From Kalaharituber pfeilii (Eukaryota > Ascomycota > Pezizomycetes > Pezizales > Pezizaceae): DNA of 64,000 nucleotides. The translations under genes were made by a program, and so were the position numbers. Within the stretch, counting starts at the first letter, position 1, and the number at the start of each line of letters is the position of its first letter. Under the pieces are notes generated by a model that did no database searches, had not been told where the DNA came from, and was given only the letters and a program-made list of their open reading frames with translations. This document shows, piece by piece, positions 3,301 to 62,075 of the stretch. The stretch covers positions 1,860,001 to 1,924,000 of the forward strand of contig WHUZ01000003.1 of NCBI GenBank assembly GCA_015179045.1, read 5' to 3'.

Positions 3301-3356
3301 TTTTTTTTTTTTTTATATCACATGACCCCGCTTGCAGCTGTTCGCCATGGCAGGGC
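3301..3356 (-). mobile_element. Short retroposon, A family
   Basis: A 56-bp insert. The minus strand runs from G-CCCTGCC through GCGGGGTCATGTGA to poly(A). It is flanked by a perfect 13-bp duplication (3288-3300 and 3357-3369, ACAATGGGGCCAA). Confidence 0.93.
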
Positions 3357-3860
3357 ACAATGGGGCCAATGCGGAAGCAATGGATATGTCAAGACTCATG
3401 ATAGCACAGCAATGGAGATATGAATTGGTAAATAACAATCTATGGGCTGCCTAGTATATGCCATAAAATGTCAGATGGTACATTGGTGGAGGAGATAAGA
3501 AACGTTCGAAATAACAAAGAGAGAATAGAAAACACAAATAGCCATCGATGTTTGTAGAGATTAATCTGAATGTACTCCAGGCAACTCAGCAGATAAATAC
3601 GGCCATTCCGTCGTGTCCACGCTGTTCCATAAATGAGTTTTGCTGCACATCTTTGCGCGCAACTGATTTGCCTAGCTCCAAACCCGAGCTCATTCGCTGG
3701 AATTTCATCCTCCGGTGCCGGGGCACCACATGGACACCTGTGAGTTCTCAGACTGACTGGATATGAGCTTAGACCTTGAAACTCTAGCCCCGCCGCTTTT
3801 GAAAAGGAACCGAGTTTGGATAGCAAGGCGGCCTATGCTCATGCTCGTTGACTCCTTCGG

Positions 3861-3933
3861 CTCATTCTAACCTGGCTCTCATTCTAACCTGGCTCTCATT
3901 CTAACCTGGCTCTCATTCTAACCTGGCTCTCAT
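3861..3933. repeat. 17-bp tandem repeat, 4.3 units
   Basis: Units CTCATTCTAACCTGGCT start at 3861, 3878, 3895 and 3912, essentially identical, followed by a partial unit. It is non-coding. Confidence 0.95.
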
Positions 3934-3984
3934 CTGCAAGGCTGAAGCGCTTAGCAATGTTACGGATCGAGCGGACAGCCAGCA

Positions 3985-4096
3985 AGATCCGTGGGTTTTA
4001 TGTAGTTAGCTATCTGTTTTTTCTTCTTTTATTTAAATAAACCCTCGCCATAGCCCATAGGGCGGCACGCGAGTACTGATATTAAAAAAAAAAAAA
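3985..4096 (+). mobile_element. LINE 3' end, B family
   Basis: The B stem-loop (CTCGCC ... GCGAG, 4044-4074) is followed by TACTGATATT and A13. The preceding ~55 nt (CCGTGGGTTTTATGTAGTTA region) match the 3' untranslated region seen upstream of the B tails at 49.7 and 53.6 kb. The 5' truncation point and target duplication are not clear. Confidence 0.6.
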
Positions 4097-4099
4097 GGC

Positions 4100-60574: not shown

Positions 60575-61640
60575 TGTGATTTTTTTTTTTTTTTTTTTAA
60601 AAAAAAAAAAAAAAACGTTACCCCGCTTGCAGCGCTAAGCCATGGCAGGGTCCTGCCCTCACAGCCTGGAGACGGGCTAAAAGAAAATTCTTAACTACGT
60701 GACGTTCCACCCCCCCACCCCCTCCTCCCGAATTCCCGACCCGGAATCGTGCGCTTCTAAAACGTGATCCCGGAAAAGAACCTTTCCAACTCATCCAGTT
60801 CTTCTCCATATCATTCCAACCTTCTGGACGATTCTTTTGGTGACTGCACCGGAAAGCGAGGTGCGCCCCCGTTTGCACCTCCCCGCACCTGCACTTATCC
60901 GATTCACCCACCCCTATTCTCTTCAACCAATCAGCACACCTTCCTCTCTCCAGGCGTAAGGCAGTGAAATTTGATGTCGCCACCCTATTCCACTCCATGA
61001 CCTTCCCTCCTCCGAAACCCTCTATTTCTCTCCTCCATGCTTTTATCTTCTGGCACACCCCACTCCCAGTGGCCACCTCCTTCCCCTCCTGCGCCGTCCC
61101 CTTCTTCGCCATCTCGTCCGCCTTCTCGTTGCGTGCGATTCCAATGTGAGGTTTCACCCACATCAGTTTCACCTCCCCCCCTTCTCTTTCTCCTGGCTAT
61201 CCTGTTCACCACCTCTCTCACGTCCTCCGTCTTCCCCTTGCCTTCTCTCCCCGCCTTCTGAATCGCCCTGACAGCTGCCTCAGAGTCCAGGCATACCAGC
61301 AGCGGCACATCTTCCTCCACACGCTCTCCAGTGCTCTCCTCACCCCCCTTACCTCTCCGTCAAACACCGTCGCCGTTCTCCCCACCACTCCTGCCACCAC
61401 CGCTGACCTCCCCCATACCCCTGCTCCCACCTTACTGTCCTCGATAATGCTGCCGTCTGAGAAGAGAATTTCCCTCTCCATTCCAGCCTCCTCCCCGAGG
61501 TCTCCCATTCTTCTCTCCCTCACCCCTTTCTCCCCAGCCTCTCCACGTACTCCACCCCTGTCTTCTCGCACTCTCCTCCCCAATGGCTCCTGGTTGGTTA
61601 ATACCCACATGTATCCTTCTGGGCTATCGTGAGCAGTACA
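60575..61640 (-). pseudogene. LINE A fragment: RNase H, knuckle and 3' tail
   Basis: The minus strand encodes RNase HI in three frames: LFSDGSIIEDSKVGAGVWGR (catalytic D), GEVRGVRRALES (E), LLVCLDSEAAVRAIQKAG (D), LMWVKPHIGIARNEKADEMA (final D). Then the CX-C...HX-C knuckle (CRCGEVQTGAHLAFRC), a GC-rich C-terminus, and the A module (CCCTGCCATGGCTTAGCGCT, GCGGGGTAACG) with a T/A tail. Two frameshifts. It ties the A short retroposons to an RNase-H LINE of the Tad/I type. Confidence 0.85.
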
Positions 61641-61890
61641 ACTTGATTTCTGGCGAGAGTGGTACTTGTGAGGCGCGGGAAGAATAAATTAAATCTAGAA
61701 CAGATAAAGGCAGAGGTTTGGTATTGTAAATTCTTGCATGAGAAAACATCTACGATTGACGTTCTAGGTCATGACTTGAACACTGAAAGGTGTTGTATTA
61801 GTTGTAAGTACAGTCCTTATATAGCGGGTCTTACTTAGTTATAAGCATGTAGTAGCAAAAGAAGTACTTCCAGTTGACCTATTGTTTAAT
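61641..61890. other. Spacer
   Basis: Nothing recognised. Confidence 0.4.
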
Positions 61891-61901
61891 AGTACTGAAG
61901 C

Positions 61902-61968
61902 GCCCTGCCATGGCGAATAGCTGCAAGCGGGGTAACGTGATATTAAAAAAAAAAAAAAAAAAAAAAAG
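61902..61968 (+). mobile_element. Short retroposon, A family
   Basis: G-CCCTGCC start, GCGGGGTAACGTGATATT, A23. Duplication GTACTGAAGC at 61892-61901 and 61969-61978. Confidence 0.93.
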
Positions 61969-61997
61969 GTACTGAAGCTACTAGTAACTTCCTAGTT

Positions 61998-62075
61998 TCC
62001 CTGCCATAGGCTAGTAGCCTGTATGCGGGGTTACGTGATCAAAAAAAAAAAAAAAAAAAAAAAAAACTTCCTAAA
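61998..62075 (+). mobile_element. Short retroposon, C family
   Basis: T-CCCTGCCATAGGCTAGTAGC, GCGGGGTTACGTGATC, A26. Duplication AACTTCCTAGTT at 61986-61997 and 62076-62087, with an extra ACTTCCTA copy in the tail junction. Confidence 0.9.

Follow-up and report, generated by a model that had tools for sequence, protein, structure and literature searches.

The genome of Kalaharituber pfeilii holds roughly a thousand hairpin-only copies of ~40 nt, which are formed from the 3′ ends of at least three LINE lineages. These short copies are products of LINE-mediated target-primed reverse transcription (TPRT): they have target-site duplications (TSDs) and A-rich tails, and there are parent LINEs with the same 3′ end. 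Judged from the sequence, their 5′ ends are set by the feet of predicted hairpins, contrary to random truncation and to an independent SINE. As for the mechanism, we favour RNA templates already cut back to the hairpin over drop-off of the reverse transcriptase (RT) at the hairpin foot, and give the former a probability of just under one half.

The inserts came to light in the window, by which we mean the whole 64-kb stretch of DNA analysed (C223:1860001-1924000), for which a first-pass annotation had listed twelve of them (Table 1). All twelve are real and hold the A module, which is degenerate at 15102 (CCCTGACATAGCGAC...) and diverged at 56965, but the list was incomplete: the window also has B-module hairpin-only inserts (with a TSD at 17896-17948 and 61998-62077, without one at 19778-19822 and 56827-56888) and longer LINE-connected A and B copies. 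The listed inserts do start 0-3 nt before CCCTGCC, exactly 1 nt in most, and ten of the twelve do have TSDs, although these are 9-15 nt long and not 9-13 nt as first given. In nine (3301, 16568, 17811, 18575, 19138, 19515, 26399, 49191 and 61902) the TSD scores at least 9; the tenth, at 56965, is an exact 9-nt repeat (CAGATTGGC) with a score below 9, and at 15102 and 22343 no TSD was found. The longest LINE-connected copy in the table contains ORFs at 54609-55220 and 54781-55578, neither with a Pfam match, and is apparently internally deleted: it has ORF1-like frames, and no EN/RT frame was seen in the part read. Elsewhere in the window, a forward-strand frame at 41534-42457 has RNase H-like domains of LTR-type reverse transcriptase (PF17917, PF17919), and the window also encodes a MYND protein and a HET match that falls short of the Pfam cut-off.

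Table 1. Short inserts and longer LINE copies in the window; −1 and −2 are positions relative to the first C of CCCTGCC
Feature	Position	Strand	TSD and remarks
Hairpin-only insert, TCAY module, −1 G	3301..3356	-	TSD ATTGGCCCCATTGT, start at −1
Degenerate A module (CCCTGACATAGCG...GCGGGGTTATGTGA), T-rich tail	15102..15132	+	From sequence; no TSD found, missed by module search
Hairpin-only insert, TCAY module	16568..16623	-	TSD ACTGTTGGCTG
Hairpin-only insert, TTAY module, −1 A	17811..17874	+	TSD AATCTCTCAATATC
Hairpin-only B-module insert; −1 T assignable to TSD or insert	17896..17948	-	TSD AAGGCAGCT
Hairpin-only insert, TTAY module, −1 A	18575..18638	-	TSD TTCTTCCGAGGAC
Hairpin-only insert, TCAY module, one extra untemplated T	19138..19198	+	TSD CCTCTTGTCAT, start at −2
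Hairpin-only insert, TCAY module, −1 G	19515..19578	+	TSD AGACGAAGCGTGC
Diverged B module, classed short	19778..19822	-	No poly(A) run, no TSD found
Hairpin-only insert, GAATC module	22342..22396	+	Classed short; no TSD recovered
Hairpin-only insert, TCAY module, −1 G	26399..26458	-	TSD AAGGAGAGGGTATTG
Hairpin-only insert, TCAY (CCTTGG) module; −1 C as exception	49190..49245	-	TSD ACCTATCTACTC
B module classed short, −1 T	56827..56888	-	No TSD recovered by score
Diverged hairpin-only insert	56965..57025	+	9-nt TSD CAGATTGGC, score below 9
Hairpin-only insert, GAATAG module, −1 G	61902..61967	+	TSD GTACTGAAGC
Hairpin-only B-module insert, −1 T	61998..62077	+	TSD AACTTCCTAGTT
Longer LINE-connected TTAY copy, 5′ end ~390 nt upstream of module	18046..18504 (end approximate)	-	TSD AGATCCAACGCGGG
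B-type copy, truncation 56 nt upstream of module	36079..36199	-	TSD GAACGTACCAGCCCAA
LINE-connected copy with ORF1-like frames near 3′ end	54426..55810 (end approximate)	-	TSD AGTAATTGACAATT, 1,340 nt upstream of GCGGGG

The modules are 38 nt (A) and 40 nt (B) long, and each is the 3′ end of LINEs. Parents were traced from endonuclease matches (150 scored of 288 candidates) with modules ~3.4-3.7 kb downstream, and three loci were found: L109 (TTAY type, A at −1), L129 (TCAY type, G at −1) and L130 (B type, T at −1). Each encodes an APE-type endonuclease (PF14529), an RT (PF00078) and an RNase H (PF00075) and ends in a module, the ORF2 domains being split over three frames in L109 and two in L129 and L130. 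CCHC-like ORF1 motifs are visible in the parent translations, and the ORF1 frames of L109 (1-1953) and L129 are without a Pfam match. A-type copies share about the last 100 nt; apart from this, the roughly 970 nt compared do not align to L109. The predicted fold of the LINE 3′ end consists of three hairpins, HP1 (AAGCCUG..CGGGCUU), HP2 and HP3, the last of which is the module. The inserts are, as first proposed, tails of a 'LINE A': the 38-nt module is the 3′-terminal hairpin of LINEs with endonuclease, RT and RNase H. HP3 was predicted in 8/8 shorter and 5/8 longer folds, other pairings being preferred in the longer context for L129, L080 and L041. The fold z values against shuffles are −1.98 for the TCAY hairpin, −1.08 for TTAY, −2.60 for B and −0.76 for the 76-nt piece from HP1 to HP3; by these predictions shuffled sequences fold almost as well as the TTAY hairpin and just as well as the 76-nt piece.

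Across the genome (78 Mb, 360 contigs searched) the exact A module, CCCTGCCATGGC-N-GCGGGGTNAYGTGA, has 2,494 matches against none for the reversed pattern, and 906 of these are preceded by CAGGGR, the sequence found there in full LINEs. Its 14-nt 3′ part alone gives 4,349 matches against five in the reversed control, in part because the B module (CCCTGCCATAGGCT...TGTATGCGGGGTTACGTGA) shares it. The window is a dense patch, since the 200 kb directly to its left have only three modules, one of them degenerate (14-nt 3′ part with at most two mismatches, by eye). Nineteen sites with the 14-nt part and no exact CCCTGCC were inspected by eye: they are mostly mutated or internally deleted modules, two (L132, L149) look cut inside HP3 and L142 is probably due to chance. 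The loop of the A module, the five bases between GGC and GCT, is lineage-dependent (GAACA, CAAGT, CACGT, TTGGC or TTAGT among the matches listed), and these may possibly be lineage-specific recognition loops.

To place 5′ ends by TSD, copies were taken from the window, from L001-L008 and from 80 fetched places, with L009-L028 left out; removal of one double (L103, in a second register) reduced 111 rows to 110 copies, comprising 66 short (hairpin-only), 39 LINE-connected and 5 ambiguous ones. A poly(A) or A-rich 3′ tail is present in most, L065 and the window copy at 19778 having given none. The TSD scores at least 9 in 50 of the 66 short copies (median length 13) and falls below this in the other 16. 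Forty-six of these 50 start at −2 to +2 of the first C of CCCTGCC, 45 by score (25 at −1, 12 at −2, five at 0, two at +1 and one at +2) and one, L008, by reading, as it was scored at +6 through chance extension and reads as −1. The remaining four start at −4, −5, −7 and −20. When right flanks were swapped between loci, 12/380 combinations scored at least 9 and 0/380 placed a start at −3 to +2. The uniform start therefore holds genome-wide, with a peak at the stem-loop foot predicted for the 3′ end in place of an even spread, and the base-fixed ends do not fit random 5′ truncation. A fixed-length ruler measured from the 3′ end was considered and rejected, since HP3 differs in length between A and B and the start is constant relative to the stem.

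The base at −1 ties the short copies to their LINEs. Short copies were counted by lineage with patterns that have a non-G at −2, which leaves out LINE-connected copies that are intact, G being the base of all three parents at this position, and includes any LINE-connected copy mutated there. Such patterns match 583 TCAY copies, perhaps an overstatement of the independent ones by roughly a tenth owing to the composite described below, 250 TTAY copies and 61 B copies. The −1 base is G in 98/100 of the TCAY and A in 96/100 of the TTAY copies among the matches listed, and T in 57/61 of the B copies, in each case the base of the parent LINE (G in L129, A in L109, T in L130). Most of these inserts thus carry one templated base beyond CCC and stop there, so the start first assigned to CCCTGCC itself usually lies one templated base outside it. 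Nor is there a single retroposon family, as had been supposed, because the same product is made by three LINE lineages or more (the TCAY and TTAY forms of A, and B), and an independent small RNA gene as template is unlikely given that the −1 base tracks the parents in all three. A cap-derived extra G as the general source of this base was also rejected, the base being A in TTAY and T in B.

The picture is less clear for a fourth module type, GAACAGCTGCAAGCGGGGTTA, with 135 short copies: among 100 matches listed the −1 base is G in 72, A in 23 and another base in five, whereas LINE-connected copies of this type have 19 A and 2 G (n=21, among the matches listed). In the fetched set, the mixed group classed as 'other' disagrees too, with 13 G, 1 C and 2 T in short copies and 9 A, 2 G and 1 T in LINE-connected ones. 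The mismatch could possibly stem from a mixed origin in lineages of the G type (the copy at 62594 is one example) or from a C-to-T change in TCAY modules. The −1 bases of the TCAY, TTAY, B, fourth-type and CAGGGR sets, like the listed places and the HP1-sample classes given below, were counted by eye. Two copies, L033 and L036 (C1:178114-178394 and C1:213713-213993), both counted among the 66 short ones, are hairpin-only inserts lodged in the loop of a hairpin that belongs to another LINE copy. Among 100 listed short TCAY places, about 11 have AG before a GCTGCAC module; judged from L033 and L036, these are probably parts of the same composite, which suggests that it is multi-copy.

The start is not single, as had first been thought: a second recurrent one lies at the foot of the upstream hairpin HP1. 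In a sample of 20 of the 183 TCAY copies with GG before the module, eight start there, six by TSD score (L150, L154 with two extra bases, L160, L161, L166 and L167) and two by reading (L163 with a degenerate TSD, L165 behind a T run). Nine of the 20 are short copies that have the G by chance; among them L153 lacks a scored TSD and L151 has 20 bases from TSD to module. The other three (L152, L155, L162) are longer or without a placed end. In L165 (C34:9798-10082) about 16 T stand between the TSD and AAGCC, as if poly(T) had been added at the 5′ junction. The first copy set has HP1-foot ends in L053, L066, L067, L075 and perhaps L096, which has two TSD mismatches. Ten other longer copies have ten different ends, at −26, −56, ~−196, −390, −468, −573, −615, −629, ~−695 and ~−1,316, the last two recalculated from the distance to GCGGGG and the long distances of L041, L072 and L078 possibly 1 nt off. 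For 29 of the 44 copies classed as LINE-connected or ambiguous no 5′ end could be placed, in most cases because the fetched DNA did not reach far enough upstream.

On the reading we favour, the LINE transcript would be cut or trimmed from its 5′ side down to the hairpin, HP3 probably being shielded by a bound LINE protein, and the leftover polyadenylated RNA of ~40 nt (or 76 nt) would be the complete template. The RT would run to the 5′ end of this RNA, sometimes add one untemplated base and join the target, and in this way HP3 with its poly(A) tail would be inserted by TPRT from several LINE lineages. That the inserts are copies of HP3 has a direct basis in the TSDs, the A-rich tails, the matching parent 3′ ends, the sharp ends in three lineages and the HP1-foot ends. 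The junctions bear on the step at the RNA end. Of 46 short-copy junctions, 12 have one extra base at −2 (6 T, 3 C, 2 G, 1 A) and eight show 1-3 nt of microhomology. Long copies could be compared with sisters in six of eight cases tried (L037 and W54455 were dropped), and these show homology that extends into the TSD by 0-4 nt; an extra base was consistent in none of them. The difference in microhomology has a Fisher p of 0.0025 with all six long copies and of 0.10 without L048 and L079, which rest on a single base each, and for extra bases the surplus in short copies falls short of significance (12/46 against 0/6, p=0.32). The RT of R2 adds untemplated bases after completing its template, and needs this for jumping, according to the available part of PMC8857657. 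The short junctions seem to resemble run-off at a real RNA 5′ end, a mild support for cut-back templates.

Several points count against a cut-back template. Where structure or protein halts a 5′-3′ exonuclease, several bases should remain, so the 0-1 base left outside HP3 speaks against cut-back of this kind, and a generic nuclease would be no explanation, since lineages with similar hairpins differ strongly in their share of short copies. The −1 base of the fourth module type departs from that of its LINE-connected copies, and the hairpins are predicted ones, with weak TTAY and 76-nt folds. The fuller proposal, which we put forward tentatively and at rather less than even odds, is that a discrete, RT-protected, polyadenylated RNA of ~40 nt, with a 76-nt sibling, would be the complete retrotransposition template, making a headless recognition-hairpin retroposon that would have arisen in parallel in at least three LINE lineages.

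Both a discrete RNA and a stop of reverse transcription had been offered at the outset, and both account for the fixed start; sequence alone cannot separate them. In the second, the template would be intact LINE RNA, and the LINE protein would hold HP3 during initiation and lose its grip once this had been melted and copied, with synthesis often aborting at the 5′ foot and again at HP1. We consider this doubtful, though a serious contender. It ties the ends to the very hairpin that the RT probably binds and accounts for the lineage-dependent shares of short copies (583 non-G against 183 GG for TCAY, the GG class being impure with 9/20 sampled copies also short; 250 against 595 GA for TTAY; 61 against 185 GGGT for B). 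RT stalls are, however, expected on the 3′ side of a hairpin, before it and not after it, so that ends at the 5′ foot fit RNA ends better, and the short junctions show less microhomology than the six long copies compared. A parallel in its favour is the Magnaporthe element MGL, for which the accessible text of PMC2104539 describes template switching that favours certain sites, with predicted hairpins lying immediately upstream of them. As a common stop, a conserved helix upstream that ends at −2 was rejected, since the folds differ between lineages.

Trimming of the cDNA, in which the first strand would be freed by the element's own RNase H and chewed back from its 3′ end to a DNA hairpin, is improbable. 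The parent LINEs do encode an RNase H, and near-blunt ends at two hairpin feet are what a single-strand exonuclease should produce, yet the extra base in 12/46 junctions would need a later step and long copies should be trimmed too, while the placed ones keep scattered ends. Still less credit is due to an independent SINE-like family, one transcribed from a small RNA gene with a promoter of its own and mobilised in trans by the LINE machinery: a uniform 5′ end, a high copy number and the fourth type's −1 base, which does not track its LINE, would suit it, as would the LINE tails of fungal SINEs such as Mg-SINE (available part of PMC3747384), but the −1 base tracks the parent in three lineages, each with hairpin-only copies, and the 38-nt body is headless, inspection of the short bodies having revealed only the LINE hairpin and no small-RNA-derived head with an internal pol III promoter. 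Random 5′ truncation with selective retention of short copies, which might persist as less harmful inserts, can be set aside, since the starts are base-fixed and not merely short, only two of the 19 sites without CCCTGCC look cut inside the hairpin by eye, and the distribution of ends refutes it.

Compared with 5′-truncated LINE copies in general, the inserts are alike in their TSDs, intact 3′ end and LINE origin. Truncation points normally scatter, whereas here most copies share one or two; for mammalian chimeras such scatter is stated in the available part of PMC2104539. Stringent LINE tails (UnaL2, ZfL2-1/ZfL2-2 and reported Tad1-clade pairs) likewise have a 3′-terminal stem-loop common to several elements, but in those the hairpin serves long elements or SINEs as an entry signal, and here the predicted hairpin is the whole insert. 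The stem-loop is bound in ZfL2-2 and ZfL2-1 by the part of ORF2 that lies between EN and RT (accessible text of PMC4176376), and 3′ stem-loops are reported for Tad1 in fungi, among others (PMC5135761, as far as available). Compared by domain content, the parents match Tad1-clade LINEs in the APE-type endonuclease, RT and RNase H of ORF2. The MGL/MINE chimeras of Magnaporthe also involve a fungal LINE and recurrent break sites with predicted hairpins, many being TSD-flanked, but their MGL 3′ parts are 230-5,461 nt long, are fused to a second RNA and break at a consensus site GCC*A/U, and the part of PMC2104539 available mentions no inserts of the hairpin alone. Mg-SINE and Blumeria SINE2-1_BG use fungal LINE tails too, but are listed in the accessible portion of PMC3747384 as tRNA-derived, with tRNA-derived heads, and no head is visible in the inserts here. 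In the literature searched, mostly as listings and with few subscription papers, we recognised no account of LINE inserts that consist of the hairpin alone and share a fixed 5′ end.

The origin of the 5′ ends of LINE copies is an old open question, to which the usual answer is random fall-off of the RT. The roughly one thousand copies form a natural experiment, in which the 5′ end coincides, in most cases to the exact base, with the foot of a predicted RNA hairpin. With them, models based on RNA ends and on RT drop-off become directly testable. The copies suggest that a tail hairpin and poly(A) may be enough for insertion, and the hairpin inserts are a possible minimal template for the biochemistry of fungal LINEs.
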